Assembly (NCBI GenBank): GCA_019638575.1
Contig: JAHBTN010000004.1
Location: forward strand, 1-64,000
Direction: 5' to 3'
Length of the DNA: 64,000 bases
Source of the DNA: Ferruginibacter sp.
GTDB lineage: Bacteria > Bacteroidota > Bacteroidia > Chitinophagales > Chitinophagaceae
The notes below the pieces were generated by a model, which was given only the letters and a program-made list of their open reading frames with translations, made no database searches and was not told the origin of the DNA. Made by a program: the position numbers and the translations under genes. Positions 14,471-29,672 of this stretch are shown piece after piece (within the stretch, counting starts at the first letter, position 1; each line of letters begins with the position of its first letter).

Positions 14471-15067
14471 ATTTCCCTGCTCGGCATTTACGGGTAAATA
14501 TTCAAATTCAAAACGCCTTACTATCTCGTATCTTTTTTCGTTTTTACCTTTTCGCAGCAACAGGAATGCATCGGCCAAAAAGCGGCCGGTGAAGCTTTTT
14601 TTAAGGTATTGTTTCATGGCTTCAAGATATTTTTCCTTTGGTATCCGGCCAGCCAGCGCTATCTGCGGATCAAGCAAAAAATGCGGATCTTCTCCCGATG
14701 CTTTCATAAGCATCCTTGCCTGCTTTAGGTTTTTTATCAGTTGCAACACACGGGGCTGGTTGGCAATACAGATAAAAATGGCATGCATGGGGTAACTGCC
14801 AAAGTCCCTCAATTCAACAATAAAAGGTTTTTCGGCCATGGCTACCTGCTGCAGCCGGTTAATAATCTTTTCTTCCATCGCCTTTGTGGCTGCAAACCTT
14901 ACCAGTGTAATATTGGGCCGCCCCGTATGCGGTTGCAGAATATGGTATGTTTCCTGCAATTCCTTCCTGGCTTTTTCAATCTTATGCCGCAGTTCCTCAT
15001 GCGGGTTCAGTATCAATAAATACTCATACAACCTGTAGCCCGGCATTTGTGTTAATGTTGTTTCCAT
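14459..15067 (-). CDS. 2'-5' RNA ligase-like (2H phosphoesterase fold) protein, degenerate motifs
   Basis: A 202-aa protein resembling the 2'-5' RNA ligase / LigT superfamily, whose active site is two HxT/S motifs. Here the first motif reads NIT (N52, in GRPNITLVRF), so Asn replaces the catalytic His. The second reads HAI (H95, in YPMHAIFI). The fold-defining pattern and spacing remain, but phosphodiesterase activity is doubtful; it may bind nucleotide without cleaving. It is transcribed divergently from umuD across an 85-bp gap holding two tandem dyads, so both may share control. It could also belong to a related, uncharacterised branch of the superfamily. Confidence 0.6.
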   Translation of the reverse strand: METTLTQMPGYRLYEYLLILNPHEELRHKIEKARKELQETYHILQPHTGRPNITLVRFAATKAMEEKIINRLQQVAMAEKPFIVELRDFGSYPMHAIFICIANQPRVLQLIKNLKQARMLMKASGEDPHFLLDPQIALAGRIPKEKYLEAMKQYLKKSFTGRFLADAFLLLRKGKNEKRYEIVRRFEFEYLPVNAEQGNLFQ

Positions 15068-15097
15068 AACAAATAATTTTTGGGTAAAATTTCAAAC

Positions 15098-15135
15098 ACT
15101 AATTATTTTAGTATAAATTTACTAAATAATTTGGT
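15098..15135. promoter_or_regulatory. Two tandem ACTAA-N5-TTAGT dyads, candidate damage-response operator
   Basis: Dyad 1 (15098-15112) is ACTAATTATTTTAGT, with perfect 5-bp arms. Dyad 2 (15121-15135) is ACTAAATAATTTGGT, with one arm mismatch. Their centres are 23 bp apart, about two helical turns. They fill the 85-bp gap between the divergent ligase-like gene and umuD and overlap AT-rich -7-like sequences (TAAATTTA at 15114-15121). They look like a repressor operator, but no LexA gene is in the window. Confidence 0.45.
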
Positions 15136-15152
15136 ATTTAAAATTATTTTTT

Positions 15153-15584
15153 ATGGAAGTAGAAAAGTTTTTTGGCAGCAGCTACAGCGGTAGCAAAGCC
15201 TTTACACAGCAGGATGTAAGCAGCGCCAATGCCACAGGTTTTACCGCCGCTGCAGACGATTATATGGAACGGGGCATTGACCTGAATGAGCAACTCATCC
15301 GCAATAAGCCTGCAACTTTTTTTATGAAGGTAAATGGCAACAGCATGATTAACGCTGGTATTTACCATGGCGATATTGTAATTGTAGACAGGAGCCTTAC
15401 CCCGCAAAACGGTAAAATTGTAATTGCTGTTATTGATGGCGAAATGCTGATACGACGGTACGAAAAAACAATTAACCGCCTGCGGCTGGTGCCCGAAACA
15501 GCCAGGCTATCGCCAATTGAAGTAAGCGAATTTTGCGATTTCAAGATATGGGGCGTGGTAATTTATATCATAAGAAATGTATGA
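15153..15584 (+). CDS. umuD: UmuD-like S24-family protein with Arg at the catalytic Lys position
   Basis: A 143-aa protein aligning along its whole length with UmuD, the accessory subunit of DNA polymerase V. The cleavage site corresponds to T28-G29 (ATGFTAAADDY, against CGF in E. coli). The nucleophile Ser64 is present in VNGNSM, followed by GIYHGDIVIVDR. The general-base Lys (E. coli K97 in FTVKKL) is replaced by Arg101 in EMLIRRY; the codon is CGA. RecA-stimulated self-cleavage may therefore be lost or altered, unless Arg serves in this lineage. The gene overlaps umuC by four bases (ATGA) and lies behind two tandem dyads. Confidence 0.85.
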   Translation: MEVEKFFGSSYSGSKAFTQQDVSSANATGFTAAADDYMERGIDLNEQLIRNKPATFFMKVNGNSMINAGIYHGDIVIVDRSLTPQNGKIVIAVIDGEMLIRRYEKTINRLRLVPETARLSPIEVSEFCDFKIWGVVIYIIRNV

Positions 15585-16855
15585 AAGCCATTATAGATTG
15601 TAACAGTTTTTATGCCGCCTGCGAACGAGTATTTAAACCATCGCTAAACGGCAAGCCTGTTGTTGTGCTCAGCAATAACGATGGCTGCATTGTATCCCGT
15701 ACAGATGAGGCAAAAGCGCTTGGCATAAAAATGGCCGGCCCTTATTATGAAGCAAAAGAAATTTTGGAGCAACACAAAGTTGCGGTGTTCTCCAGCAATT
15801 ATCATTTATATGGAGATATGAGCTGGCGGGTGATGGAAACCCTGCGTACGTTGTGCCAGCATGTAGAAGTATATTCTGTTGATGAAGCCTTTGCCGACCT
15901 GGAAGGCATCAGGGAATCGGCTATGTGGAATTACGGGTTACACATTAGCAAAACAGTAGAACAATGGACGGGTGTACCGGTTTCGGTGGGCATTGCCCCA
16001 ACCAAAACACTGGCCAAAGTGGCCAACCATATTGCCAAAAAAAACAAGGTAGCTACGCAGGGCACGGTAGCCTTATTAACAGCCGGCCAAATACGTGAAG
16101 CCCTTGAAAGTACGCCGGTGCAAACAGTTTGGGGCGTAGGTGCCCGCAGTGCAGAAAAACTGCACTGGCTTGGTATTGATACCGCCTGGAAACTTCGTAA
16201 CATGAGCGAAGAATGGGCCCATAAAAACCTGGGCGGCGTGGTTGGCATACGATTGATAAAAGAACTGCAAGGCCATGCCTGCATTGAAATGAAAGACCCG
16301 TTAAAGAAAAAGAAAATGATTGCCACCACCCGTATGTTTGGCAAACCGGTTTTTGAATTAGCCCAGCTAAAAGAAGCCATTGCCAGCTATACCAGCCGGG
16401 CTGCTGAAAAATTACGCAGGCAATCGGGCGCTGCAGGCCTTGTTCATGTATTTGTGGTTACTAACGATTATCCCGGTAACGAGTATAGCTATCGCCCTGC
16501 AACCAAAGGGTTATACAGCATACTGCCTATTGCAACTTCATTAACCAACGAACTGATAGCGCATGCAAGCATACTGATAGAGAAATTATACAACAACGGA
16601 TCAAGATACCTGAAAGCAGGCGTGATGCTGGGCAATATTGTACCCGATACATCGGTACAGTATAATCTGTTTACCGCCCCGGCAAATGATAATGCAAGAA
16701 CCCTTATGCATGTGATTGACAATGTAAACTTCGGCATGCGTGACGAAATGGTGAAGTTTGCTGCTGCAGGTACAAAAAAAAATTGGAGAATGCGGCAGGA
16801 GTACAGGAGTATGCGCCATACCACCAGGTGGGAAGAATTGTATGAAATCAGCTAA
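15581..16855 (+). CDS. umuC: UmuC-type Y-family DNA polymerase
   Basis: Error-prone translesion polymerase of 424 aa, the usual UmuC length. Catalytic palm motifs are IDCNSFYAACERVF at the N-terminus and VYSVDEAFADL (the SxDE acidic pair). IAPTKTLAKVANHIAKK is the conserved DNA-contacting segment, and WGVGARSAEKL gives a helix-hairpin-helix-like turn. A C-terminal little-finger domain and UmuC-specific tail follow. The ATG at 15581 overlaps the UmuD stop; an open frame reaches 15533, but that start would lie well inside umuD. The next gene, crtD, begins only 18 bp after the stop on the same strand. Confidence 0.93.
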   Translation: MKAIIDCNSFYAACERVFKPSLNGKPVVVLSNNDGCIVSRTDEAKALGIKMAGPYYEAKEILEQHKVAVFSSNYHLYGDMSWRVMETLRTLCQHVEVYSVDEAFADLEGIRESAMWNYGLHISKTVEQWTGVPVSVGIAPTKTLAKVANHIAKKNKVATQGTVALLTAGQIREALESTPVQTVWGVGARSAEKLHWLGIDTAWKLRNMSEEWAHKNLGGVVGIRLIKELQGHACIEMKDPLKKKKMIATTRMFGKPVFELAQLKEAIASYTSRAAEKLRRQSGAAGLVHVFVVTNDYPGNEYSYRPATKGLYSILPIATSLTNELIAHASILIEKLYNNGSRYLKAGVMLGNIVPDTSVQYNLFTAPANDNARTLMHVIDNVNFGMRDEMVKFAAAGTKKNWRMRQEYRSMRHTTRWEELYEIS

Positions 16856-16873
16856 TTTTACGCAAGTAAGATT

Positions 16874-18349
16874 ATGATTACAGAAAATAATAAAACCTGT
16901 GCAGTGATAGGGGCAGGCGTATCAGGCTTAGGTGCTGCCATACGCATGCGTAATAAAGGTTACAAAGTAACCGTGTTTGAAGCCAACTCTTTTCCGGGTG
17001 GCAAATGTTCGTCGGAAAGTAAGGATGGTTACCGCTTTGATATGGGGCCATCGGTTTTTACCATGCCGCAATATGTAGATGAGTTGTTCATCCTATCGGG
17101 CAAAAACCCCCGTGATCATTTTAATTATATCCCATTAGACCCCGTTTATAAATATTTTTTTGAAGACGGCACCTGCCTGGATGCTTATCACGGAAAAGAA
17201 AAATTTGCAGAACAGCTTGCTGCAAAAACCAACGACAAGAAAGAAGATATCATAAAATATCTCAACAAAACAGAAACCATTTATAACCTTACCGAAGAAG
17301 TATTTTTAAAAAACTCGTTACACAGGCTTAAAAACTTTTTTACATGGCCCGTACTAAAAGGTATTTTAAATTTTGGAAAGATAGGCGCTTTTGATACCAT
17401 GAACGGCGCCAACCAAAAAGCATTTAAAGATACAAGGCTGGTAAAGGTATTTAACCGGTACGCTACATATAACGGCTCCAGCCCCTACTTATCGCCGGCT
17501 ACTTTAAATGTAATTGCACATGTAGAAATTGTAAAGGGTGCATTTTATCCTGTTGGAGGTATGTACAGCATTACATCTTCATTAGCGCAACTTGCAAAAG
17601 ATATTGGGGTAGAATTTAAATATTCAACCCCCGTAAAAGAAATTATTATTGAAAATAAAAAAGCTACCAGCATTAAAACGAATGATGGCATACAGGATTT
17701 TGATATCATCATCAGCAATATGGATGTATATAACAGTTATAAAAAACTGATGCCAACAGCCAAAAGGCCGGCCAAAACTTTAGACCAGCCAAAATCCAGT
17801 TCGGGAATTATATTTTACTGGGGTATTAAAAAAGAGTTTACACAACTTGGGTTGCACAATATTTTTTTTGCAGATGATTACGAAGCAGAGTTCAACTGCA
17901 TCTTTGCAAAAAAATCTATTTACCACGATCCAACTATTTACGTAAACATCACCAGCAAACATACTCCCGGTGATGCACCTCCCGGTTGCGAAAACTGGTT
18001 TTCGTTCATCAATGTACCAAATAACCAGGGCCAAAACTGGGATGCATTTATTGCCGAAGCTCGTGAGAATATGATTAAAAAAATAAACCGCATTTTAAAA
18101 ACAGATATAAGGCCGCTGATTGAAAGTGAAATGGTATTTGACCCCCGGGTAATTGAAAGCCGCACTTCCAGCGCTTTTGGCGCCATCTATGGCAACAGCT
18201 CCAACAATAAGTTTGCAGCTTTTTTACGTCATGCAAATTTTTCGAAAGACATTAAAAATTTATATTTCTGCGGAGGCAGTGTACACCCGGGGCCCAGTAT
18301 TCCGCTTTGTTTGTTATCGGCAAAAATTATAACCGGCTTAATTAAATAA
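16874..18349 (+). CDS. crtD: CrtD-like carotenoid 3,4-desaturase (phytoene desaturase family)
   Basis: FAD-dependent carotenoid oxidoreductase of 491 aa. The N-terminal dinucleotide fold reads VIGAGVSGLGAAIRMRNKG and the C-terminal FAD part YFCGGSVHPGPSIPLCLLSA. The middle of the protein (IIFYWGIKKEF, GLHNIFFADDY, DAPPGCENWF) resembles CrtD, 1-hydroxycarotenoid 3,4-desaturase, more than phytoene desaturase. A separate CrtI lies in the operon at 28 kb. With the CruF-like hydratase of that operon it would make the 1-hydroxy-3,4-didehydro end of saproxanthin- or myxol-type carotenoids. It starts 18 bp after umuC and is followed after 79 bp by the ABC-ACP operon. A CrtI-type or other hydrocarbon oxidase is the alternative. 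Confidence 0.75.
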   Translation: MITENNKTCAVIGAGVSGLGAAIRMRNKGYKVTVFEANSFPGGKCSSESKDGYRFDMGPSVFTMPQYVDELFILSGKNPRDHFNYIPLDPVYKYFFEDGTCLDAYHGKEKFAEQLAAKTNDKKEDIIKYLNKTETIYNLTEEVFLKNSLHRLKNFFTWPVLKGILNFGKIGAFDTMNGANQKAFKDTRLVKVFNRYATYNGSSPYLSPATLNVIAHVEIVKGAFYPVGGMYSITSSLAQLAKDIGVEFKYSTPVKEIIIENKKATSIKTNDGIQDFDIIISNMDVYNSYKKLMPTAKRPAKTLDQPKSSSGIIFYWGIKKEFTQLGLHNIFFADDYEAEFNCIFAKKSIYHDPTIYVNITSKHTPGDAPPGCENWFSFINVPNNQGQNWDAFIAEARENMIKKINRILKTDIRPLIESEMVFDPRVIESRTSSAFGAIYGNSSNNKFAAFLRHANFSKDIKNLYFCGGSVHPGPSIPLCLLSAKIITGLIK

Positions 18350-18367
18350 AAGGCGGCTTATTTAGTT

Positions 18368-18375
18368 TAAATTTG
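18368..18375 (+). promoter_or_regulatory. Candidate internal promoter (-7 box) for the ABC-ACP operon
   Basis: TAAATTTG matches the Bacteroidota -7 consensus TAnnTTTG exactly and lies 53 bases before the ATG of the ABC ATPase. No TTTG is found at the expected distance upstream, so support is partial. Confidence 0.3.
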
Positions 18376-18428
18376 CCCCACATATTTTTTCAAAAAATAA
18401 ATTCAGTTAAAACAGGCTTACCCCATAC

Positions 18429-19181
18429 ATGAGTAATTCGGCCATAATAGAAATAGAAAATTTAACCAAGACATTTAAACATGCCGAAGAACCTGCTGTA
18501 AACGGTATTTCATTTTCAATAAACCGAAACGAAATTTTTGGATTGCTGGGGCCAAATGGCGCAGGCAAAACAACTACCATCTCCATCCTGTGTGGCTTGT
18601 TTGCACCAAGCGGCGGCAAAATTGTTATTGATGGCAAAAACCTGTACGAAGAATTACCTTTAATAAAAAAAATCATAGGCATTGTACCGCAGGATATAGC
18701 CCTTTATCCCACATTATCGGCACGTGAAAACTTAGCTTTTTATGGCAGCATGTATGGATTACACGGAAAAAATTTAAAAAACAGGATTGAGTTATGGCTT
18801 GAAAAACTTGGATTGAAAGATACAGGTAAAAGACAGGTTTCAACTTATTCTGGCGGCATGAAAAGAAGGGTAAACCTGATTGCCGGCATTTTACACCAAC
18901 CCAAAATTTTATTTTTAGACGAACCCACAGTTGGTGTAGATGTACAGAGCCGTAATGTAATTATTGAACATTTAAAAGAGATAAATGCAGCAGGCACTAC
19001 CATCATTTATACATCGCATCACATGGAAGAGGCGGAAAATTTTTGTACAAGGGTTTCTATCATCGACCATGGAAAATTGTTGACTGTTGGTACCCCGTCG
19101 GAGTTAATCAACAACAGTACCGGCGCCACAAACCTGGAAGGTTTATTTTTAAATTTAACCAAACGAAAACTGAGAGACTGA
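18429..19181 (+). CDS. ABC-2 type exporter, ATP-binding subunit
   Basis: ATPase of 250 aa with Walker A GPNGAGKTT (41-49), Q-loop VPQDIALYPTL, signature YSGGMKRR and Walker B ILFLDEPTVGVD, followed by the switch His in TSHHMEE. The MKRR signature and the phrase LFLDEPTVGVD are typical of ABC-2/DrrA-like exporters of drugs, lipids or natural products. It energises the permease encoded next, whose ATG shares one base with this stop codon (TGATG). The two form a probable efflux system for whatever the following ACP, acyltransferase and ligase genes make. Confidence 0.93.
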   Translation: MSNSAIIEIENLTKTFKHAEEPAVNGISFSINRNEIFGLLGPNGAGKTTTISILCGLFAPSGGKIVIDGKNLYEELPLIKKIIGIVPQDIALYPTLSARENLAFYGSMYGLHGKNLKNRIELWLEKLGLKDTGKRQVSTYSGGMKRRVNLIAGILHQPKILFLDEPTVGVDVQSRNVIIEHLKEINAAGTTIIYTSHHMEEAENFCTRVSIIDHGKLLTVGTPSELINNSTGATNLEGLFLNLTKRKLRD

Positions 19182-20464
19182 TGCTGAACAAATTACTTGC
19201 TACGGTTAAAAAAGAAGCGCTGCTGTTATTAAGAGATAAAGTAGGCCTTGCTGTTTTATTTGTAATGCCGGTGGCATTGATACTGGTGATGACGCTGATC
19301 CAGGATTCGGCTTTTAAATCTATCAATGAAAAAGGCATACCTATTGTTTTTGTAAATGATGATAACGATTCGCTGGGATATAACATTAAACAGGGGTTGA
19401 TGGAAAATGATTTATGTTACCTTGTTGATAGCATAGATGGAAAGCCCGCCACTGCTGAACTGGCAAAGAAAGCAGTTAGTGAAGGAAATTTTTTGCTTGG
19501 CATTGTAATTCCCAAAGGCGCCACTGCAGCCATCAGAAAAAATGTATCGGCGCTGGTAGATGAAACTATGAATGGCAGCGACAGCCTTCAACAACAACAA
19601 GACTCTGTTGAGATAACCATTTTAATTGACCCTGTTGCAAAAAAATCTTTTTTAAATGCTGTTACCAGCAACCTGCGAGAATTTATATCGGAAGTAAAAA
19701 CAAAAATTATGTTCCAGTCTTTTTCTGAACAAATTGCCGATGTAATCCCCGACAGGCAAAATGCACCTACTAATTCATATCAAAAATCACAGATTATACA
19801 TTATAAAGAAATCTTTGCTTCAGCAGCATCTGAAAAAATTATCCCAAATGCTGTACAACATAATGTACCTGCATGGACAATATTCGCCATGTTCTTTATT
19901 GCCATCCCTTTATCAAACAGCATTCTCAAAGAAAAAACCGAAGGCAGTGTATTTAGGTTACACACTATGCCTACGCCTTACCTGTTATTGATAAACGGAA
20001 AAATAATTGTGTATGTGATAGTTTGCCTGTTGCAATTTTTACTGATGCTTGCAGTAGGTAAATTCCTGTTGCCACAATTAGGTTTGCCGGCATTGGTTTT
20101 AGGAAACAGCGTGGCAGGTATTTTTCTTTTAACACTGGCTACCGGCTTTGCGGCAACCGGTTTTGGCGTAGCTGTTGGTACATTGGCCACTACCGATCAC
20201 CAGGCGGCAATTATGGGTTCACTATCCATACTTTTATTATCGGCGCTGGGTGGCATTTGGGTACCAAGCTATGTAATGCCCCAAGTGATGCGTACTATCA
20301 GTTCTTACTCGCCATTAAACTGGTCGCTGGAAGGTTTTTATAAATTATTTTTAAGAGGAGGAACTGTTAATGGTATTTTACCAGATGTATGTAAATTAAT
20401 GGCCTTCTTTTTTGCAATGATGGCAATAGCTCATATAGCAAACCTTAAAAAAAGAAATGTGTAG
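19181..20464 (+). CDS. ABC-2 type exporter, permease subunit
   Basis: Membrane subunit of 427 aa with ABC-2 (DrrB/YhhJ-like) topology. One N-terminal transmembrane segment (VGLAVLFVMPVALILVM) is followed by a periplasmic domain of about 200 residues. A cluster of five segments closes the protein, beginning at TIFAMFFIAIPLSNS and including the conserved re-entrant ALGGIWVPSYVMP. The long extracytoplasmic domain is typical of permeases that work with lipids or polyketide-like products. The true start is the ATG at 19181, since an open frame reaching 19043 lies inside the ATPase gene. The ACP gene follows 3 bp later. Confidence 0.88.
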   Translation: MLNKLLATVKKEALLLLRDKVGLAVLFVMPVALILVMTLIQDSAFKSINEKGIPIVFVNDDNDSLGYNIKQGLMENDLCYLVDSIDGKPATAELAKKAVSEGNFLLGIVIPKGATAAIRKNVSALVDETMNGSDSLQQQQDSVEITILIDPVAKKSFLNAVTSNLREFISEVKTKIMFQSFSEQIADVIPDRQNAPTNSYQKSQIIHYKEIFASAASEKIIPNAVQHNVPAWTIFAMFFIAIPLSNSILKEKTEGSVFRLHTMPTPYLLLINGKIIVYVIVCLLQFLLMLAVGKFLLPQLGLPALVLGNSVAGIFLLTLATGFAATGFGVAVGTLATTDHQAAIMGSLSILLLSALGGIWVPSYVMPQVMRTISSYSPLNWSLEGFYKLFLRGGTVNGILPDVCKLMAFFFAMMAIAHIANLKKRNV

Positions 20465-20467
20465 CAC

Positions 20468-20722
20468 ATGGATACAAACAGCATAATAGAAGAAATAAAA
20501 AAATACATCGAAAAAAATATTTTGGCTGAGGCTGTTTCGATAGATGCCGACACCGAATTGAAAAAAGCCGGCATTGATTCTTTTTCAACGGTAGAGATAA
20601 TCCTTTTCATTGAACGCAAGTTTGGCGTTGCCATACCTGATGAACAATTATTACCCGAAAATTTTAAAACCCTGCGTTCATTAGCTTTAACGGTTACAAG
20701 GCTAATGAACCATACAGCTTAA
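20468..20722 (+). CDS. Acyl carrier protein
   Basis: An 84-residue stand-alone carrier protein. The phosphopantetheine attachment site is Ser38 in AGIDSFSTVEI, with the usual acidic surroundings, and helix III reads FGVAIPDEQL. It would carry an acyl or aminoacyl group as a thioester after modification by a phosphopantetheinyl transferase, which is not in this window. It is unlikely to be the fatty-acid ACP, as no fab gene is near and the gene sits tightly between an ABC permease (3 bp) and a condensation-like acyltransferase (11 bp). The AMP-ligase three genes on is the likely loading enzyme. Confidence 0.9.
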   Translation: MDTNSIIEEIKKYIEKNILAEAVSIDADTELKKAGIDSFSTVEIILFIERKFGVAIPDEQLLPENFKTLRSLALTVTRLMNHTA

Positions 20723-20733
20723 AGGCGCTTTAC

Positions 20734-22050
20734 ATGGCAACATTTAATAAAGCCGATTTACCTGAAAAAATAATTTTAAGCGGTGCCGACTGCTTTCATC
20801 TTGTATTGGATAAACATGCTAAAAAGCATGGAGCAGGTGGTAATGTAATGCGAAAGGTCTTTTATTTTAACGATAAGCTTGATTTTAAAAAAGTGGATGC
20901 CATCTTAAAAAGTTCTCCCGTAATTTACTGGCTTTGTAATATCAAACTTAATTATGGTACAATTATAAATACCGCCTACTGGAAGTTTACCAATGCCGGT
21001 AATGAAATAATATTGCAAGAACATAATATGGCCCGGGAAAATGAAATCCCCGAATCAATTTTAAATAGAAACATTACAATTGATGCAAAAAGATTTATTG
21101 AAGCCGACCTGGTATATTACCCTTCGGGCAGCTGTGCTTTTGTGTTATCTTGGAACCATATACTGTTAGATGCCAAAGGAACCACTTTGCTTTTTGAACA
21201 TTTAAACCAGCTTACTGCCAAAGCACAGCAGGATACCGGCCTTTACTTTCCTGCAAAAGAAAAAAAACAAAATATTTTTCAGCATATAAAAAACATGTAC
21301 AAGATTAAAAGTTTTGTACAAGAATCTGCAAGGCCACCCGTAAGTTCAGTTGCCTCAACTAAAGTAAAACCCGGCGACGGCAAGACTTGCACAAAAATAA
21401 TTTCTTTTGATGCCTGTGAAACAAAGAAGATACAAGACAATGCAATTAAGGCAGGCTCCCGGTTTGGGCCTACATTGTTTTTTATAGCATGTTGTGCCCA
21501 TGCGGTTCATTCTATAAACAAACAAAGAAATAAAACCGGCGACCTGTGGTTGCCTGTGCCATACGATGGAAGACTAAAAGGCGCTACCGGCCCAATGATA
21601 TCGAACTGTGTTTCTTTTTTATTTTACCGTATTCTGAAAACTGAATTTGAAAGTGTACCGCAAACAGTAAAAAGTTTGAGCATGCAAATGACCCGGCAAA
21701 TAAAAGATGGTATTCCACAGAAATATAAAATGTTCCTGAACATGATGCGGCACTTGCCCTTATGGCTCTATTATTTTTTAATCAGCAATACCAACAAAGG
21801 CGTTTTTGCAAGTTTTTTATACACTTCAACAGGCGATAATTTCAGCAACATGGAAACACTGTTTGGTAAACCTGTAAAAAATATCACTATGGTTCCGGCA
21901 CTCACCTACCCGCCGGGCCTTACATTTGTTTTTTTGCATCATCTTGAAACATTACATATCAACATTGCCTATTCGCAGGAAATTATCAATAATAATGAGT
22001 TAGCTTTAATTGAAGAAAACATAAAAGCAACCTTACTTGCCAATTATTGA
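20734..22050 (+). CDS. Condensation-domain-like acyltransferase (CoA-dependent acyltransferase fold)
   Basis: A 438-aa protein that I place in the condensation/WS-DGAT-like acyltransferase superfamily. The active-site pattern HHxxxDG appears as NHILLDAKG (H142, D146, G149). A second region, VPYDGRLKGATGPMISNCVS, resembles the conserved tunnel motif of these enzymes. It stands alone, not in an NRPS module. The likely role is transfer of the ACP-bound acyl group to an alcohol or amine, forming an ester or amide. The acceptor is unknown. The stop overlaps the next gene's ATG (ATGA). Similarity is by motif and layout only, so the family call is moderate. Confidence 0.65.
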   Translation: MATFNKADLPEKIILSGADCFHLVLDKHAKKHGAGGNVMRKVFYFNDKLDFKKVDAILKSSPVIYWLCNIKLNYGTIINTAYWKFTNAGNEIILQEHNMARENEIPESILNRNITIDAKRFIEADLVYYPSGSCAFVLSWNHILLDAKGTTLLFEHLNQLTAKAQQDTGLYFPAKEKKQNIFQHIKNMYKIKSFVQESARPPVSSVASTKVKPGDGKTCTKIISFDACETKKIQDNAIKAGSRFGPTLFFIACCAHAVHSINKQRNKTGDLWLPVPYDGRLKGATGPMISNCVSFLFYRILKTEFESVPQTVKSLSMQMTRQIKDGIPQKYKMFLNMMRHLPLWLYYFLISNTNKGVFASFLYTSTGDNFSNMETLFGKPVKNITMVPALTYPPGLTFVFLHHLETLHINIAYSQEIINNNELALIEENIKATLLANY

Positions 22051-23294
22051 TGAAAGCCAATGTACATACTGATATTGTTGTTGCAGGTGGTGGCGCTGCC
22101 GGTATTGCTGCCGCTATAGCCGCTGCCAGGCAAGGTTTACAGGTTTTACTTATTGAACGTAATGCCTACACTGGTGGTAAAGCCACGGCTGCCGAAGTAG
22201 GCACCGTATGCGGTTTATACAAATACAATAAAAAAAACAATGCCCAATATTTGGTGAAAGGTTTTGCAAAAGAATTTGCAACGCATCTTCAAAAAAAATC
22301 CGGCACCAAAGCTTTGTTCAATGCAGATGGTTTGCATTACCTGCCATACAACATTGAAGATTTTAAATCAGTTTCGCTTGATTATTTACATGAAAACAAA
22401 GTGACTGCATATTTTGATACGGAAATAAAATCGGTGCAAATCCATCAACATAAAATAAATGCAGTTACTGTATTAAAAAAAGGCCAACCTGTAAACATCC
22501 ATTTACAATCCATCATTGATTGTACGGGTGCAAGTATTATCAGCCAGGCGGCTCATTTACCAATCATTGAAAGTGATCAATACCAGGCTGCAGCACAGGT
22601 TTTTAGTATGACAGGAATTGAAGAAACCAACGAAGCAAGGCTTGGATTAATTATAACAAAAGCTGTAAGTGCTGCCATTACAAATAAAATATTACCTGCG
22701 TTTTACGACCGGGTTTATATTGTTCCCGGTTCTTTAAAAAATAACGAGGCAAGTTTTAAAGTGGGTATTCCAATAGCGGTTACTAATACTCCCGGCAATT
22801 TGCAGGAGTTAAAAAAAGCCGCTCACAGTTTTGTTAGCAATCTTGCTGCTTTTTTAATTGCAAATGTTGATGCTTTTAAAAACGCATCAATAAAAAATAT
22901 TGCCAGCGAAGTGGGCATTAGAACGGGGCAAAGAAATGTTGGCAAATACATACTAACCGAAGACGATGTATTAGCCTGCAGAAAATTTGATGATGGCATA
23001 GCCCTTGCTGCCTGGCCCATTGAAGAATGGAGACAAGACAGAAGAGTTAACATGCGTTATCTTCCACAGGATGAATATTACCATGTACCGGCAGCCTGTT
23101 TACAATCGGCAGGCATAGGTAATTTATTTTTTGCCGGAAGAAACATTTCGGCTACCGATGCTGCCATTGCAAGTGCAAGGGTGATGGGTATTTGCCTGCA
23201 AACAGGTTATGCCGCCGGCTGCCTGGCTGCTGCTGTTGTAAAAAACATTTCAATAGCAGATGCTGTTGTGCAAATTCAAACCAGTCAATTATAA
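22050..23294 (+). CDS. FAD-dependent oxidoreductase
   Basis: Soluble flavoprotein of 414 aa with a GxGxxG dinucleotide fold (VVAGGGAAGIAAAIAAARQG) and LLIERNAYTGGKATAAEVG. This is the pattern of the FAD_oxidored family, found in assorted biosynthetic oxidases and dehydrogenases. The C-terminal FAD contact is LFFAGRNISATDAAIASARV. The substrate is unknown; in this operon it could oxidise or desaturate an ACP-bound or released acyl product. The ATG at 22050 overlaps the upstream stop; a TTG one codon earlier is also possible. There is no tryptophan-halogenase WxWxIP motif. Confidence 0.78.
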   Translation: MKANVHTDIVVAGGGAAGIAAAIAAARQGLQVLLIERNAYTGGKATAAEVGTVCGLYKYNKKNNAQYLVKGFAKEFATHLQKKSGTKALFNADGLHYLPYNIEDFKSVSLDYLHENKVTAYFDTEIKSVQIHQHKINAVTVLKKGQPVNIHLQSIIDCTGASIISQAAHLPIIESDQYQAAAQVFSMTGIEETNEARLGLIITKAVSAAITNKILPAFYDRVYIVPGSLKNNEASFKVGIPIAVTNTPGNLQELKKAAHSFVSNLAAFLIANVDAFKNASIKNIASEVGIRTGQRNVGKYILTEDDVLACRKFDDGIALAAWPIEEWRQDRRVNMRYLPQDEYYHVPAACLQSAGIGNLFFAGRNISATDAAIASARVMGICLQTGYAAGCLAAAVVKNISIADAVVQIQTSQL

Positions 23295-23304
23295 TTATTT
23301 TTGC

Positions 23305-24750
23305 ATGATGAATGAATTGCCTGTTTATGAAATACTGAAAGAAGCTGCCGATAAATGGCCCGGCAATGCAGCGGTGTATGATGAACAGGGAGTGATAACG
23401 TTTGCTGAACTATATAGCGAAGCCGAAAAGCTGAAACAGGAGTTAATACGTCTTGGTATTAAACAGGGGATGGGTATGGGTGTGATGGCAGGTAATGGAA
23501 GGCTGTTCATCATTGGTATTTTTGCAGCAGTTGGTACAGGCGCTACCGTTATGCCTATGTCGCCACAACTGAAAAGAGCCGAAATAAATGATATTTTACA
23601 GGAGGCAAAACTGCATGCTATTATTGACGACCGTTCTACCATTCAACCATTAAACAGTATTGAAACGGTTATTCCCCTGCAACATGGCTCTTTCCGTTTT
23701 GCATTTACAGAAGTTGATATTGCAACACCATTTGCTCCTTTTGTTGTGCAGCCGGCATTTATAAGGTTTACTTCCGGCACAACCGGAAAATCAAAAGGTG
23801 TTATTGTCTCTCATCAAACCGTACTGGACAGGATCAACGCCGCAAACAAAGGATTACAACTTGGGCCATCCGACACCGTTATTTGGGTATTGCCCATGGC
23901 CTATCATTTCATCGTTTCAATCATATTGTATGTAAAATTTGGTGCAGCTATTTCTGTTGCTAAAGATTTTTTAGCAAAAAATATTATTGATACCACTAAC
24001 AAACACAAAGGTACATTACTGTATGCATCGCCTGTGCAAATAAGGTTATTGGCAAATGATAACAGCGCCCAACAAATGCCTTCATTAAAAAAAGTAATCT
24101 CTACATCGGCAGGCATTGCATTGGATGTTTGCAAAGCATTTAAAGAAAGGTTTAGCATTGATGTAAGCCAGGCTTACGGCATTATTGAAATTGGATTACC
24201 CATCTTAAATTATACAAAATCGGCCGAGCACCCCGAAGCAGTTGGTTATGCACAACCGGGATATACTGTTGATATTTTAGATGAAAACCATAACCCGTTG
24301 CCCAAAGGAAGCACAGGAATTTTGGGCATAAAAGGACCCGGTATGTTTGACGCCTACTTAGTGCCGGCTACTTTGCAAAAAGATGTTTTGCAAAACGGGT
24401 ATTTTTTAACCGCCGATTATGCATCAAAAGCAGAAGATGGATTGATAACGATTGAAGGACGTTCAAAATCGGTGATAAACATTTCGGGGCTGAAAGTTTT
24501 TCCTGAAGAAGTGGAAGCTGTTTTGGAAATGATACCCCAAATAAAACAGGCACGTATCAGCAGCAGCCCACATCAACTGTTAGGGCAGATAATTGTTGGC
24601 GAAATAGTATTACACAAAGGCGCCAGTATTGATGTAGAAGACGTAATGCAATATTGCAAAAAAAGGCTTTCGGCATTTAAAGCGCCACAGCGGTTAACAA
24701 TTGTAGATGCTTTACCTATGACCAAAACCGGTAAACTGCAAAGGCATTAA
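23305..24750 (+). CDS. AMP-forming acyl/aryl ligase (adenylating enzyme)
   Basis: Adenylate-forming ligase of 481 aa, complete. It carries the P-loop FTSGTTGKSKG, the A5-like YGIIEIG, the hinge region GRSKSVINISGLKVFPEE and the C-terminal catalytic Lys in MTKTGKLQRH. Such enzymes activate a carboxylic acid with ATP and transfer it to CoA or a carrier protein. With a free ACP in the same operon, loading of that ACP is the natural guess; the acid (fatty, aryl or amino) cannot be read by eye. Either of two adjacent ATGs (23305, 23308) may start it. It ends 6 bp from the convergent lycopene cyclase gene. Confidence 0.88.
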   Translation: MMNELPVYEILKEAADKWPGNAAVYDEQGVITFAELYSEAEKLKQELIRLGIKQGMGMGVMAGNGRLFIIGIFAAVGTGATVMPMSPQLKRAEINDILQEAKLHAIIDDRSTIQPLNSIETVIPLQHGSFRFAFTEVDIATPFAPFVVQPAFIRFTSGTTGKSKGVIVSHQTVLDRINAANKGLQLGPSDTVIWVLPMAYHFIVSIILYVKFGAAISVAKDFLAKNIIDTTNKHKGTLLYASPVQIRLLANDNSAQQMPSLKKVISTSAGIALDVCKAFKERFSIDVSQAYGIIEIGLPILNYTKSAEHPEAVGYAQPGYTVDILDENHNPLPKGSTGILGIKGPGMFDAYLVPATLQKDVLQNGYFLTADYASKAEDGLITIEGRSKSVINISGLKVFPEEVEAVLEMIPQIKQARISSSPHQLLGQIIVGEIVLHKGASIDVEDVMQYCKKRLSAFKAPQRLTIVDALPMTKTGKLQRH

Positions 24751-24756: not shown

Positions 24757-25443
24757 TTAATACATTGTTTTCAATTTTTCGTACAACACAATATTCATCA
24801 ATACCAGCAGCATGCCATAAAATGTATCTTCAAATGGTATGCTATAAATTCTCCATCCAAGGTTTTCGGCATCGTTATATATTACCACGGGAATAGCAGT
24901 AAGAAAACCATTTACAATTAAAAACGGAATTAAACAGATGGCATAAGAAACAAGAAAAGAAACAGCATCAAAACTTTTAAAAAATTTCCGCAATGAATAT
25001 ATAAGAAGAATAAAAATGCCTGTAAAAATAAATGTGTACCCGGTATAATATTTTTCATGGTAAAATAAACCGCTAACCAATAACAGTACACCCATCGCAA
25101 TTAAAATACGGTCGGCATTTTTTTTATTTATAAGGGTAGGAAAATAACTTCTTATACATGCATAAATAAAAACGCAGCAATAAGGTACAATAAAAAAAAA
25201 CAGGATTTCTTCAATAGGCAGGCCAATAAAATTTAATCCTGTTACATAGGTTTCATTAAATCTCCATACACCCAATTTTGTAAAATATGCATCCCACACG
25301 ATGTACAATATTGCCGGAACAATCGTAGCCGGCAAAACATATTTCCATTGTTTATAAAAAGCCACTTTTTTATCAAAGCTTAGGGCCAGCGGGCCTGCCA
25401 GCGAAGCTGCCAGGATAAGAAAATATGTGTAGTGGAAATTCAA
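24757..25443 (-). CDS. crtY: Lycopene cyclase, fused CrtYc/CrtYd type
   Basis: Integral membrane lycopene cyclase of 228 aa with about seven hydrophobic segments and two homologous halves. Each half carries the family motif: GLPIEEILFFFIVP in the first and SIPFEDTFYGMLL in the second, corresponding to the CrtYc and CrtYd subunits of actinobacteria. It makes beta-ionone rings. The start must be the TTG at 25443, because an in-frame stop lies directly before it and no ATG occurs in the first half. It is the last gene of the minus-strand carotenoid operon and converges with the AMP-ligase gene with only 6 bp between. Confidence 0.88.
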   Translation of the reverse strand: MNFHYTYFLILAASLAGPLALSFDKKVAFYKQWKYVLPATIVPAILYIVWDAYFTKLGVWRFNETYVTGLNFIGLPIEEILFFFIVPYCCVFIYACIRSYFPTLINKKNADRILIAMGVLLLVSGLFYHEKYYTGYTFIFTGIFILLIYSLRKFFKSFDAVSFLVSYAICLIPFLIVNGFLTAIPVVIYNDAENLGWRIYSIPFEDTFYGMLLVLMNIVLYEKLKTMY

Positions 25444-25494: not shown

Positions 25495-26001
25495 TCAGAC
25501 TGTAGTTGTTTTTGCTGCTTTTATATCTTTAGCATTTCTTTTTTTATCGGCACGTACTTTGTCCCAATATTTTTTATGTACCCATAGCATACCAAAACTT
25601 TCGCCATCATGCCTGTCTAAATGTTTATGATGCATTTTATGTGCCCAACGCAAGGCTCGCACATAGGTATTGTTGCTTCGGGTAAACCATTTAAAGCGTT
25701 GATGGATGATTACTTCGTGCACCAGGAAATAAGCAATACCGTATAAGGTAAAACCAGAACCAATACAAATCATCCAGTATTGTTTATAGATAACTCCAAA
25801 CATGATGAGCAACCAGCTTGGTATAGCAAATATCAAAAAGTATGCATCGTTTTTTTCAAAAAAACCGGGGCTTTTTTGATGATGGTCTTTGTGAAGGTAC
25901 CAGCCAAAGCCATGCATTACATAGCGGTGCAGGCACCAGGTAAACCCTTCCATCAAAATGAAAGTAGCCAATGTGATTGCTATGTAAATAATCCAGTTCA
26001 T
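25495..26001 (-). CDS. crtZ: Beta-carotene 3-hydroxylase
   Basis: Di-iron membrane hydroxylase of 168 aa of the fatty-acid-hydroxylase superfamily. All histidine clusters are present: HRYVMH, HKDHH, HEVIIHQRF and HKMHHKHLDRHDGESFG. These ligate the iron pair that hydroxylates C-3 of a beta-ionone ring. The length and the final cluster are typical of bacterial CrtZ. It starts 6 bp after the stop of the CruF-like gene and is followed by the cyclase gene after 51 bp. In this pathway it would add the 3-hydroxyl of saproxanthin, myxol or zeaxanthin. Confidence 0.93.
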   Translation of the reverse strand: MNWIIYIAITLATFILMEGFTWCLHRYVMHGFGWYLHKDHHQKSPGFFEKNDAYFLIFAIPSWLLIMFGVIYKQYWMICIGSGFTLYGIAYFLVHEVIIHQRFKWFTRSNNTYVRALRWAHKMHHKHLDRHDGESFGMLWVHKKYWDKVRADKKRNAKDIKAAKTTTV

Positions 26002-26007: not shown

Positions 26008-26700
26008 TTATTTCAAAAATGTTCGTAACAATAAAAAGAACATCATTTGTATCAACAGCAAATTTACTGCGAATTTGTTTTGCTTGCTGAATTTTGCAAA
26101 ATGAAAAACAGCCAGCAGTAAAACACTTACTACAAACCAACACATATAATTAAATACCGGTATACTGCCATCGCCGTTCCAAACCCAGTAACCCAGTTTT
26201 ACCGCAACAGGTTCCATCAGCCAGTCGAAAAACACTGCCAGCGTGGCGCCATCTATAATCACCGATAATGCTTTCATGGCTGCAGGCGTATTCCCAGTAT
26301 CGGCAGCTACACGGTTAATCATCTTCATCAGCAAAGTATGTACACTAATACCGCAGCAATAAATAATTATAAACCAGTTAATACCAATCAGCAAGGGTAC
26401 ATCTTTAAACTTAAACCCCAATACATTACCATACGTATAATCGCCAAAAAGTACGCCGGTATGTATTCCTATTATTTCAACAGCCATCCCTACCAGGAAA
26501 CAAGCTATAAAAAAAAACAGGAAATGCAGGTTCTTTTCAGCTTGTGTCCATACAAGTAATGCAAATGATAATAACAGGTTGAAGGGAGTGGCTTCAAGAA
26601 AAAAGGATTTATCAAAATATAATAAACCCACCAGGCCGATAGTATGAAACAATACGGCGATGGCTGTAGCTACCTGGAATTTTGAAACCCTGCTTAACAC
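26008..26700 (-). CDS. cruF: CruF-like carotenoid 1,2-hydratase (carotenoid biosynthesis membrane protein)
   Basis: Integral membrane protein of about 230 aa, with seven or so hydrophobic segments, of the Caroten_synth family that includes CruF. Diagnostic stretches are VEIIGIHTGVLFGDYTYG, VPLLIGINWF and FFDWLMEPVAVKLGYWVW. CruF adds water across the 1,2 double bond of the open psi-end of a carotenoid. The start is uncertain: no ATG exists; GTG at 26700, 25 bp after the idi stop, gives a sensible N-terminus, while TTG at 26772 would overlap idi by 47 bp. With CrtD it would build the hydroxylated acyclic end of a monocyclic carotenoid. Confidence 0.8.
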   Translation of the reverse strand: MLSRVSKFQVATAIAVLFHTIGLVGLLYFDKSFFLEATPFNLLLSFALLVWTQAEKNLHFLFFFIACFLVGMAVEIIGIHTGVLFGDYTYGNVLGFKFKDVPLLIGINWFIIIYCCGISVHTLLMKMINRVAADTGNTPAAMKALSVIIDGATLAVFFDWLMEPVAVKLGYWVWNGDGSIPVFNYMCWFVVSVLLLAVFHFAKFSKQNKFAVNLLLIQMMFFLLLRTFLK

Positions 26701-26725
26701 AAAAATTGTTTTCTTGGTTGATGAA

Positions 26726-27244
26726 TTACTTAGAGGTGGATTGAAGATACGTTTCCATTTTTGGAAAAGCAATTTTAAACCACTCAGTATATTTTTGAGG
26801 ATGCGATTGAATAGAATCTCTTATCTCTGTTATTGTTTTAAAACAGTAGTCGCTCACTTCTTCGGTATTGGGTGATATTGCTCCATTGTAATTGCCAATA
26901 AAAACATGATCAAACTCATATTCGGTTAATCCATTATCAAACTGTGCTTTGTAAATAAAGTCAAATGCCTTTTTCAACGAAACACAAAAGCCCATTTCTT
27001 CCTGCAGTCGGTTTTCTGCTGCAACAAGTGTTTCCTGCCCCGGAGCAGGATGACTGCAACAGGCATTGGTCCATAACCCCGGGCTATGGTATTTTTTATC
27101 GGCTCTTTTATGCAACAGCATTTCGCCCTTACTGTTAAATATAAAAATGCTGAAAGCCCTGTGAAGCAGGGCTTTTTGATGAACTTCCATTTTTTCCATG
27201 GTACCCGTTTGCACATCTTGCTCATCTACCAATATAACATCCAT
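26726..27244 (-). CDS. idi: Isopentenyl-diphosphate isomerase, type 1
   Basis: Nudix-fold isomerase of 172 aa. Motifs are LLHKRADKKYHSPGLWTNACCSHP (first part, with the catalytic Cys in NACCSHP), RLQEEMGF (the Nudix-derived helix) and YEFDHVFIG with the second catalytic acidic region. It interconverts IPP and DMAPP, supplying the starter for geranylgeranyl diphosphate. It lies inside the carotenoid operon, 13 bp after crtB, and may share bases with the cruF start. No GGPP synthase gene is in the window, so that step is encoded elsewhere. Confidence 0.93.
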   Translation of the reverse strand: MDVILVDEQDVQTGTMEKMEVHQKALLHRAFSIFIFNSKGEMLLHKRADKKYHSPGLWTNACCSHPAPGQETLVAAENRLQEEMGFCVSLKKAFDFIYKAQFDNGLTEYEFDHVFIGNYNGAISPNTEEVSDYCFKTITEIRDSIQSHPQKYTEWFKIAFPKMETYLQSTSK

Positions 27245-27257: not shown

Positions 27258-28094
27258 TTAATATAAATTTAATTGTCTTCTTAATCCGGCCTTGGCTACA
27301 ATATAAGCTTTGCCATAATTAGGTATGCGTATCCGCTGTTCTAAAATATGAGCAGGTGCAGTACGTTTTATTTTTTTAAACAGCGATAAATAATACTTGT
27401 ATGCTACATACACGCCAAACCTTGCTTTTGTTGGCAGGTTTAAAATTCCTTCATAAGCATTTTCAAAATCTGCGGCAATATCCATTTCAATTTGCTTTTT
27501 CATAGATGGGGTGAAGTTTGTAAAATCCACTTCAGGAAAATAAGAACGGTTCAATAACTCATAATCGGCTTTTACATCTCTTAAAAAATTAACTTTTTGA
27601 AAAGCTGCTCCCAGCGCCTGTGCCGATGGTTTTAAATCGGCATACAGGTTTTTATCGCCTTCGCAAAAAACATACAGGCACATAAGGCCCACCACTTCGG
27701 CACTGCCATAAATATATTCCTTATAGCCATTGCTGTTGTATTGTGTTTTGCTTAAATCCATTTCCATGCTGTTGAAAAAAGATTCTACCAGGTCGAGCGA
27801 AATATTATAATTCCTTACCGTTATCTGGAAACTGTGTAAGATGGGGTTAAGGCTAATGCCCCTGTCGATGGCAGCATAAGTATCTTTCTTAAATTCTAAA
27901 AGCAGTTCTTCTTTCCGGTATTGGTGAAAAGTATCAACTATTTCATCGGCAAAACGTACAAACCCATATATATTATAAATGGGGGTACGCAAATCGGGAT
28001 GAAGCAATTTGATAGCGCTGCTGAACGATGTACTGTATTTTTCAGTAACCGCTTTGCTGCATTGCTGGCTTACATCGTGAAAAAGTTTTATCAT
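27258..28094 (-). CDS. crtB: Phytoene synthase
   Basis: Trans-isoprenyl diphosphate synthase of 278 aa, head-to-head type. The two aspartate-rich metal-binding motifs are FADEIVDT near residue 50 and NFLRDVKADYE near 170. Pattern YSTSFSSAIKLL at the N-terminus is also typical of phytoene/squalene synthases. It joins two geranylgeranyl diphosphates into phytoene, the first committed carotenoid step. Squalene synthase is the alternative, but the crtI gene 78 bp upstream and idi 13 bp downstream settle the role. Confidence 0.93.
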   Translation of the reverse strand: MIKLFHDVSQQCSKAVTEKYSTSFSSAIKLLHPDLRTPIYNIYGFVRFADEIVDTFHQYRKEELLLEFKKDTYAAIDRGISLNPILHSFQITVRNYNISLDLVESFFNSMEMDLSKTQYNSNGYKEYIYGSAEVVGLMCLYVFCEGDKNLYADLKPSAQALGAAFQKVNFLRDVKADYELLNRSYFPEVDFTNFTPSMKKQIEMDIAADFENAYEGILNLPTKARFGVYVAYKYYLSLFKKIKRTAPAHILEQRIRIPNYGKAYIVAKAGLRRQLNLY

Positions 28095-28172: not shown

Positions 28173-29672
28173 TCAGTTTTGGTTATAATGTTTCAATGCT
28201 TCTTTAGCCACCACCTCTCCGCTTATAAGGCTTGGAGGTACCCCGGGCCCCGGCACCGTTAATTGCCCGGTGTAAAATAAGTTTTTTATTTTAATACTCC
28301 TGCAAGCGGGCTTTAAATTTGCCGTTTGCATCAAAGTATTTGCTAATCCGTAGGCATTGCCCTTAAACGAATTATAGTCATCTACGAAATTGCTTACCGA
28401 GTAGGTTTTTTTATAGATGATTGAATCTTTTACCGGTTGGCCTACAAATTTTTCATACCGTTTCAATATTTTTTCAAAATATTTTTCCCGCTGTTCTTCG
28501 GTATCGCCTTCAAGGCCGGCCGCAACCGGTATTAAAAAAAATAAGTTTTCATGCCCATCGGGCGCCACGGTTTTATCTGTTACTGATGGCGCACATACAT
28601 AAAATAGTGGGTTGGTTGGCCATTGTTTTGATGTATATATCTCATGCCCATGTTTTTCAAAATCGCTGTCAAAAAAAAGCGAATGGTGCAAAATGCCTGT
28701 TAGTTTTTTATTCAATCCCACATAGTACAACAAACAACTTGGTGCCATCACCCTTTTATTCCAATATTGGTTACTGTAAACCCTGCAATCTTCGGGCAAC
28801 AGTTTTGTTTCTATAAAATGATAATCGGCTGCACCTATCACCACATCGGCAGGGTATATATTGCTTGTTATTTGTTGTTGATTATTTGAAAGCGCAACAA
28901 CAGATTTTGCTTTCCTGCCATCAACTTTTATTTCCGAAACATTGCTGTTGAAAATAAATTTTACCCCTAATTCTTCGGCCAGCAAATACATGCCTTCTAC
29001 AATTTTATACATGCCCTCTTGCGGATACCAGGTGCCCAATTTTAAATCGGCATAGTTCATAAGGCTGTATAATGCCGGTGTGTTTTGCGGCAAAGCGCCT
29101 AAAAACAAAACCGGAAACTCAAGCAATTGCCGCAACTTTGGGTTTTTAAAATACTTACTGATGTGCTTGCGCATAGAAGTAAAAACATCCAGTTTAAAAA
29201 CACCTTTCACCAGGTCCCAATCTAAAAACTCGGCATACGAGCGGCCGGGTTTATGCACCAGCTTATTAATACCAACTTCATATTTATATGCTGCCTCCTG
29301 CATAAAACTATCCAGTTTTGCAGCGCTGCCGGGTTCAATATTTTCAAAAAACTTTTTAAGATCATCATAATCAGCCGGGATATCCATCAGCTCATCGTTC
29401 CAATAAATGCGGTAGGTTGGGTTTAAGCGTTGCAAATTGTAATAATCAGATACTTTTTTACCAAAGCAATTAAAAAAACGCTCAAATACATCAGGCATCC
29501 AGTACCAGCTTGGGCCCATATCAAAAGTAAAGCCAGCCTCTTTAAAATGCCTTGCCCTGCCGCCGGGTATTGATTGCTTTTCCAGTACTACTACATCCCA
29601 ACCTGCCTGTGCCATAAAGCATGCAGCCGATAAGCCTGCAAAACCACTTCCTATAATTACCGCTTTTTTCAA
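28173..29672 (-). CDS. crtI: Phytoene desaturase
   Basis: FAD-dependent desaturase of 499 aa, full CrtI length. N-terminal dinucleotide fold IIGSGFAGLSAACFMAQAG, the RARHFKEAGFTFDMGPSWYW segment and the C-terminal CrtI signature FYTGQLTVPGPGVPPSLISG are all present. It converts phytoene to lycopene in four desaturations. The start is the TTG at 29672; no ATG fits and the sequence directly after matches the usual CrtI N-terminus. It follows the ECF sigma gene by 63 bp and precedes crtB by 78 bp. It differs clearly from the CrtD-like protein at 16.9 kb. Confidence 0.93.
   Translation of the reverse strand: MKKAVIIGSGFAGLSAACFMAQAGWDVVVLEKQSIPGGRARHFKEAGFTFDMGPSWYWMPDVFERFFNCFGKKVSDYYNLQRLNPTYRIYWNDELMDIPADYDDLKKFFENIEPGSAAKLDSFMQEAAYKYEVGINKLVHKPGRSYAEFLDWDLVKGVFKLDVFTSMRKHISKYFKNPKLRQLLEFPVLFLGALPQNTPALYSLMNYADLKLGTWYPQEGMYKIVEGMYLLAEELGVKFIFNSNVSEIKVDGRKAKSVVALSNNQQQITSNIYPADVVIGAADYHFIETKLLPEDCRVYSNQYWNKRVMAPSCLLYYVGLNKKLTGILHHSLFFDSDFEKHGHEIYTSKQWPTNPLFYVCAPSVTDKTVAPDGHENLFFLIPVAAGLEGDTEEQREKYFEKILKRYEKFVGQPVKDSIIYKKTYSVSNFVDDYNSFKGNAYGLANTLMQTANLKPACRSIKIKNLFYTGQLTVPGPGVPPSLISGEVVAKEALKHYNQN

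Follow-up and report, generated by a model that had tools for sequence, protein, structure and literature searches.

In the SgcC module of C-1027 the acid is beta-tyrosine and the acceptor is the enediyne core; the parts that accompany SgcC5 are a stand-alone adenylating enzyme, a free carrier protein and flavin adenine dinucleotide (FAD) enzymes. SgcC5 itself is described in two papers as a free-standing condensation (C-type) enzyme that forms both ester and amide bonds (PMC10212144, PMC4425429). A set of genes that resembles this module, as judged by Pfam and by fold, is found in a 64,000-nucleotide stretch (the window) of Ferruginibacter sp. contig JAHBTN010000004.1, where a six-gene block at 18429-24750 follows the carotenoid desaturase gene crtD and encodes an ATP-binding cassette (ABC) ATPase and permease, a free acyl carrier protein (ACP), a stand-alone condensation-fold protein (ACT), an FAD-dependent oxidoreductase and an AMP-forming acid ligase (LIG). 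Unlike the SgcC module, the block has a CoA-ligase-like ligase, includes an ABC pair and is linked to a gene for a carotenoid desaturase. We propose, with moderate confidence, that the six genes work together with crtD as one functional module, by which a CrtD-type monocyclic hydroxycarotenoid is decorated and exported as an acyl ester.

The block also resembles flexirubin clusters, represented by the dar side of the cluster in genome G014 and by Chitinophaga pinensis, in that the product there is a pigment ester and the ABC ATPase and permease are kin to those of the block. It differs from them in that DarH is BtrH-related (NF053550) and not a condensation-fold protein, and in that the acceptor there is a dialkylresorcinol; neither ACT nor the block LIG occurs in the dar-side stretches read. 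For C. pinensis, the ligase-like FlxW is proposed for the ester (PMC3992019). Among carotenoid systems, the myxol and flexixanthin clusters of Bacteroidota share crtI, crtB, a lycopene cyclase, cruF, crtD and crtZ with this locus, but the accessible parts of the papers name no ACP, acyltransferase or ligase in them; the same parts place crtD of Nonlabens in a cluster with cruF and have CrtD convert 1'-hydroxy-gamma-carotene to 1'-hydroxytorulene (PMC10784355, PMC11855829). If our proposal holds, the product would be an acylated monocyclic carotenoid like salinixanthin (PMC5822342) and myxobacton ester (PMC8156234). In these compounds, however, which are the acylated bacterial carotenoids that we found in print, the acyl group is carried on a sugar as far as the available text shows, and the block contains no glycosyltransferase.

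No description of a carotenoid-linked ACP, condensation and ligase module, and no characterised cluster with the same six genes, was found in the open-licence literature, a search outside which subscription papers mostly fall. The logic of the module is known, the partner is new and the acceptor is probably new; the presence of related sets beside crtD in distant relatives suggests an undescribed way of decorating carotenoids. If true, decoration by way of a carrier protein and a condensation-fold enzyme, in association with a CrtD subfamily, would be new for carotenoids and would give a role to a condensation-fold family that Pfam and NCBIfam do not name. The loci are also clear targets for finding new pigments by liquid chromatography-mass spectrometry.

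Organization of the block

The seven genes are as follows.

16874..18349, forward strand: crtD, 1-hydroxycarotenoid 3,4-desaturase (NF042421, 617.5 bits, cut-off 500)
18429..19181, forward strand: ABC transporter ATPase (PF00005 ABC_tran, 3.8e-35)
19181..20464, forward strand: ABC-2 permease (PF12698 ABC2_membrane_3, 7.6e-31)
20468..20722, forward strand: free-standing ACP with Ser38 (PF00550 PP-binding, 1e-9)
20734..22050, forward strand: ACT, stand-alone condensation-fold protein, probable acyltransferase (motif [N/H]HxxxDxxG)
22050..23294, forward strand: FAD-dependent oxidoreductase (PF12831 FAD_oxidored, 255.9 bits)
23305..24750, forward strand: LIG, AMP-forming acid ligase (PF00501 AMP-binding, 1.3e-54; PF13193 AMP-binding_C, 5.7e-13)

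The open reading frame (ORF) list and a spacing check show that the genes are tightly packed, with one-nucleotide overlaps at the permease ATG (19181, with the ATPase) and the flavoprotein ATG (22050, with ACT) and gaps of 3 bp between permease and ACP and of 11 bp between ACP and ACT. The listed LIG frame begins at 23260, overlapping the flavoprotein gene, and the ATG codons at 23305 and 23308 lie 10-13 bp after that gene; the later start is likelier because several homologues (L011, L015, L016 and L017, in our numbering of loci) have only the form of about 480 residues. LIG ends 6 bp from the stop of the convergent crtY (24757). The sequence-only reading had described this layout, with six genes overlapping or at most 11 bp apart, crtD just upstream and the crt operon converging 6 bp downstream, and its account holds on each of these points. 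Pfam agrees with its identification of the ATPase, permease, ACP (Ser38, within GIDSFS), FAD enzyme and AMP-ligase and names five of the six block proteins, ACT being the exception; the nearest NCBIfam models of the ACP, PRK07081 and AmcB, are both below cut-off.

As that reading had also stated, ORFs and Pfam reveal no ketosynthase (KS), nonribosomal peptide synthetase (NRPS) module or thioesterase within the block, and no KS, aromatic lyase, dehydratase, DarA or DarB is found by the same means in 16874-24750, an interval that does not classify as a flexirubin or aryl-polyene cluster. A classical NRPS was rejected for want of modules, and a plain flexirubin or aryl-polyene cluster was rejected since the block is without KS, aromatic lyase and DarB. 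All seven genes, crtD included, are under purifying selection, with ratios of nonsynonymous to synonymous divergence (dN/dS) of 0.04-0.22 against L009 and of 0.04-0.19 against L010, the latter at dS values of 1.0-2.0, which are near saturation. This selection, together with the recurrence of the gene order in relatives, indicates that the block is more than a chance arrangement. A promoter and terminator scan gave no more sites than shuffled sequence, and a tRNA scan of the window found none.

ACT is a variant member of the condensation-fold superfamily

The structural model of ACT has the two-lobed condensation fold, which places it within the NRPS condensation-fold superfamily and bears out the earlier description of a stand-alone condensation-like protein with the motif NHILLDAKG. 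The HHxxxDG motif with its catalytic second histidine is present in ACT as the variant [N/H]HxxxDxxG; H142 and D146 are conserved in 38 of 38 ACTs of at least 360 residues and G149 in 37 of them. At the level of sequence families, ACT of the source stretch matches no Pfam model at E values up to 0.1 and no NCBIfam model at E values up to 0.01; the gathering cut-off of PF00668 (Condensation) is not reached, the source ACT giving no match and the ACT of L084 scoring 20.2 bits against 30.6. A search of PDB sequences returned one match, Bacitracin synthase 3 (E 0.034).

The flavoprotein model (predicted local distance difference test score, pLDDT, 89.2) has its nearest folds at template modelling (TM) scores of about 0.5, among them a geranylgeranyl-reductase-like protein, the halogenases CndH and Bmp2, and flavin monooxygenases. 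The nearest solved relatives of LIG are malonyl- and oxalyl-CoA synthetases, followed by chlorobenzoate, feruloyl and other enzymes, a mixture from which the substrate could not be read.

Synteny in close relatives and genus-mates

A contig scan with five ACT sequences gave twelve loci, all in metagenome-assembled genomes of Ferruginibacter, Chitinophagaceae and other Bacteroidota. ACT is present in five of 59 relatives (source genome included), five of 394 family genomes, ten of 396 order genomes and one of 395 phylum genomes, the last being the source genome; the order-level figure includes G947, whose match (E 6.6e-4 over 42 columns) is probably chance and was not counted as an ACT. Loci that reached us from two sources were counted once (L006/L010, L007/L014, L008/L019, L072/L015, L073/L017, L083/L018 and L003/L012).

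In most loci that are long enough, BLAST against the source proteins recovers the order crtD, ATPase, permease, ACP, ACT, FAD enzyme, LIG, although an overlapping frame is listed and no ACP in L015, L016 and L072, and the FAD frame of L018 is split. The conserved synteny proposed as a check by the sequence-only reading is found, as crtD lies directly upstream in 12 of the 13 non-redundant close loci with readable DNA upstream of the ATPase (the source stretch, L009, L010, L011, L013, L015, L016, L017, L018, L036, L051 and L075). The one locus that departs from this is L074 (4646-10068, genome G161), and the CrtD of that genome is on another contig (L147). In L017, crtI and crtB immediately precede crtD, and in L020, where the contig begins within ACT, LIG is followed by non-crt genes. 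Comparison of synteny with and without crtD favours the carotenoid link, since crtD accompanies the block in L016 even without an adjacent crt operon, and distant ACTs in other families are often near crtD. Chance proximity to the crt genes was rejected on the ground that the linkage recurs.

The 13 block-free genus-mates (L052-L064) carry crtD inside the crt operon, at 43-49% identity to the source crtD. Their operon order is mostly crtI-crtB-idi-crtD-cruF-crtZ, except that L064 has no idi, no cruF was recognised in L062 and L058 is cut after cruF. In the source genome and in those carriers whose operon was read intact, cruF comes next after idi, without an intervening crtD; the crtD of the block stands in for the operon crtD. 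Three block-free loci (L061, L062 and L063) keep the outer neighbours, with umuDC beside that end of the operon which holds the cyclase or the hydroxylase, and therefore the block and its own crtD occupy the margin of a conserved crt neighbourhood. In these three loci umuDC-type and crt genes are themselves neighbours, and in the carriers the block lies between them (source 14459-18349); the gene beside umuDC in L062 is presumably DUF72-like.

Distant relatives in the class

A 15-row ACT profile matched 28 of 345 class genomes. Setting aside the source genome and two genomes with NRPS-like matches (G1369 and G1104, not counted because their open frames of 5697, 2665 and 4184 residues probably contain NRPS C domains) leaves 25, and loci were obtained from all of them. 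In 15 of the 25, crtD is near ACT (L119, L120, L122-L127, L129 with crtD in pieces, L132 and L133 both cut by the contig end, L134, L136, L137 and L138); the order-level search adds L084 and L086 with crtD beside the module. The crtD-ACT linkage extends over eight families of one class, with differing gene order and orientation.

The composition of these loci varies. All six block genes occur in L084, L119 and L120; ACP, ACT, the FAD enzyme and LIG occur without the ABC pair in L134, L136 and L138, as they do in L086, whose LIG lies at a distance of about 3.7 kb; ACP and ACT alone accompany crtD in L125, L127 and L137. In L122 (by Pfam) and in L124, L126 and L133 (by BLAST), ACP and ACT stand with a Trp_halogenase-like flavoprotein. 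The rest of the crt operon is mostly not seen beside the distant crtD within the stretches read, apart from crtZ in L119, L120 and L138 and crtI about 10 kb away in L134.

Two kinds of Trp_halogenase-like flavoprotein are found next to ACP-ACT, one in L122:10299-12032, L124, L126 and L133 and the other in L134:7464-8699 and L136, and each kind has relatives within or next to flexirubin-type clusters (L195 and L207; L188, L194 and L198). In L129:5699-8765, crtD and a halogenase-like gene lie in pieces beside ACP-ACT. A Sulfotransfer_3-type gene is near ACT in L119, L122, L124-L127, L129, L133, L134, L138, L154, L157 and L086, called by Pfam for four loci and by BLAST for the rest, hinting at sulfated products in other families; a sulfotransferase homologue is present in four of 14 genomes searched and is absent from the source genome.

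ACT is co-inherited with one CrtD clade

Of 34 ACT-positive genomes, 32 have a CrtD match at E<=1e-100, a threshold reached by none of the CrtI-like second matches in that search, and the remaining two (G1236 and G1282) have a broken or contig-cut CrtD beside ACT. By comparison, CrtD at this level is found in 27 of 80 other class genomes, which were chosen by handle number and have no accepted ACT match (G1104, with its NRPS-like match, included). The genomes in these counts are not independent of one another.

In an IQ-TREE phylogeny of 62 rows, the 26 linked CrtDs all stand outside a group (99/99) of 20 unlinked ones, the majority of which have cruF or another crt gene as a neighbour. A FastTree phylogeny added 28 CrtD-like proteins from 26 of the 27 CrtD-positive comparison genomes (two each from L184 and L185; L159 has no long frame). 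One clade in it (support 0.99) contains all 26 linked full-length CrtDs, nine unlinked CrtDs from ACT-positive genomes, which were fetched because their genomes had ACT, and one of 44 CrtD-like proteins from ACT-free genomes, a status that for 16 order-level genomes comes from a one-sequence search. The other 43 fall outside, together with four CrtDs of ACT-positive genomes, two of which also hold an in-clade CrtD (G1303 and G1124) and two of which are aryl-polyene-context cases (G981 and G928). CrtDs without a frame of the required length (at least 380 or 400 residues) were left out of the trees, namely those of L129, L132 and L133 (linked, broken or cut), of the ACT-positive L151 and L152 and of the ACT-free L159. 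On these comparative data, the coupling of the block to a CrtD subfamily is well supported. The source CrtD passes the curated NF042421 equivalog cut-off as the only match above it in its genome, and some distant linked CrtDs are just under the cut-off of 500 (G848, 496.8; G1244, 486.8).

A flexirubin-type cluster in the same genome

On the same contig (C33, at about 182-208 kb; L186:17133-L188), outside the window and some 157-183 kb further downstream than the block, the source genome has a cluster of the aryl-polyene/flexirubin type. Pfam confirms in it an aromatic lyase, a KS, a halogenase-like flavoprotein, an AMP-binding protein, an Amino_oxidase and an acyltransferase; an ApeI-like dehydratase, DUF3261, LolA, AcpS and others are assigned by likeness only, the ApeI and DUF3261 models falling just below cut-off for the L085 homologues. 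The stretches of the source genome that were read showed neither DarA nor DarB; a pattern scan for DarA/KSIII-like frames, with patterns that were too strict, gave no match. In G014 a cluster of this type has as its neighbours DarB (NF053539, 606.9 bits, cut-off 550), DarH (NF053550, 457.9 bits, cut-off 300), an ABC pair and an ACP; the NCBIfam search that named DarB gave no model for a DarA-like frame.

ABC pairs kin to that of the block lie in or beside the flexirubin-type clusters of G014, G368, G1047, G004, G020 and G1095, with ATPases 41-61% and permeases 31-38% identical to those of the block; other ABC ATPases met in ACT loci are 25-31% identical to the block ATPase, and the ABC tree was built without further DrrA-type transporters as an outgroup. 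An exporter pair of this kinship, in a genome with an aryl-polyene cluster, makes an aryl or aryl-polyene acyl group possible. Family f93 (L139:2742-8052, L140 and L173) has CrtDs 69-74% identical to that of the source beside aromatic-lyase and KS genes, called by Pfam in L140:9339-14910, where the CrtD is of the block clade, and by sequence likeness or layout in L139 and L173.

Proposed function and alternatives

The sequence-only reading had proposed a route from ligase through ACP, flavoenzyme and acyltransferase to ABC export, with a hydroxycarotenoid as one testable acceptor. The conserved synteny, the identity of the parts and the condensation fold support this route, which we refine with the exporter's kinship to the flexirubin pair and the possible aryl acyl group. 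LIG would adenylate a carboxylic acid and load it on Ser38 of the ACP, and the PF12831 flavoprotein would oxidise, or halogenate, the carrier-bound acyl group or the pigment. ACT would then move the acyl group to a carotenoid hydroxyl to form an ester, the ring 3-OH and the psi-end 1'-OH both being conceivable, and the ABC pair would carry the pigment ester toward the outer membrane. The most economical reading takes a carotenoid hydroxyl as the acceptor and a flexirubin-type ABC pair as the exporter. A more specific version, which we hold to be quite improbable as a whole, is a pigment-pigment hybrid in which an aryl or aryl-polyene acid made by the cell's own aryl-polyene pathway would be handed by the ACP of the block to a CrtD-type carotenoid, at its hydroxyl, and the flexirubin-type ABC pair would export the product; the carotenoid would take the place that the dialkylresorcinol has in flexirubin, and in other families sulfotransferases and halogenase-like flavoproteins would modify the product further.

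Several observations weigh against the carotenoid ester module. L074 (G161) has ABC, ACP, ACT and FAD genes with neither crtD nor LIG adjacent; the FAD enzyme, LIG or the ABC pair is missing from many distant ACT loci; one in-clade CrtD comes from an ACT-free genome (G1133, L173); and CrtI of the source is itself of the bifunctional CrtID type, so CrtD could do something else. To these belong the distribution of the aryl-polyene dehydratase, the setting of ACT in L085 and L087, the ACTs without crtD and the top fold match of ACT, each of which favours one of the following alternatives. The module may serve the aryl-polyene/flexirubin pathway, with ACT, ACP, LIG and the flavoprotein tailoring the polyene and a CrtD variant desaturating or isomerising it in place of a carotenoid. 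The dehydratase, searched with the source sequence at E<=1e-8, is found in all five block-bearing genus genomes tested (of seven known) and in one of 13 block-free ones, and an ApeI-like match (E<=1e-3) in 27 of 28 ACT-positive genomes, a figure with no ACT-free control in the class outside the genus. The CrtDs of family f93, the kin of the ABC pair and of the halogenase-like neighbours in or beside flexirubin-type clusters, and L085 (without crtD) and L087 (cut, no crtD seen), in which ACT lies by aryl-polyene-type genes, point the same way. However, the source CrtD is the sole protein of its genome above the CrtD equivalog cut-off, block carriers lack an in-operon crtD and most close loci have the block together with the crt operon. 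Part of the dehydratase co-occurrence may moreover be explained by ancestry, because the genus carriers are mostly, not all, close kin by crtB (83-99% identical to the source, except G1047 at 76%; block-free mates 68-81%). We consider this alternative unlikely.

It is rather less probable that the product made and exported by the block is an unrelated lipid or small acyl compound and that its crt neighbourhood is incidental. This would accord with the ten of 25 class loci in which no crtD is visible near ACT, namely L128, L131, L135, L154, L155 (in which an intact ACT frame was not recognised) and L158, together with L121, L130, L156 and L157, in which the view is restricted by contig ends, and with the finding that none of the six block proteins is above the cut-off of a known carotenoid enzyme family in Pfam or NCBIfam; it fits poorly with crtD linkage in eight families under varied order and orientation and with linked CrtDs that form one clade. 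That the top fold match of ACT is AzeD, a dehydratase, would suit a reading in which ACT is not an acyltransferase and carries out an AzeD-like dehydration or other conversion of the ACP-bound acyl group, with another enzyme releasing it, which we regard as about equally improbable.

The convergent crt operon

Downstream of the block, the source operon comprises the following genes.

24757..25443, reverse strand: crtY, CarR-type lycopene cyclase, start of the convergent crt operon (PF18916, 4.8e-39)
25495..26001, reverse strand: presumably crtZ, carotene ring hydroxylase (ORF)
26008..26772, reverse strand: cruF, carotenoid 1,2-hydratase (PF04240, 5e-26; CruF models below cut-off)
26726..27244, reverse strand: presumably idi, isopentenyl-diphosphate isomerase (ORF)
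27258..28094, reverse strand: presumably crtB, phytoene synthase (ORF)
28173..29672, reverse strand: crtI, CrtID-type phytoene desaturase/3,4-desaturase (NF058655, 735.5 bits, cut-off 640)

As CrtI passes the bifunctional desaturase model, CrtD may be partly redundant or specialised. From crtI, crtB, crtY, cruF, crtD and crtZ, a saproxanthin-like diol backbone is predicted, on the presumption that crtA-OH, for which no search was made, is absent.

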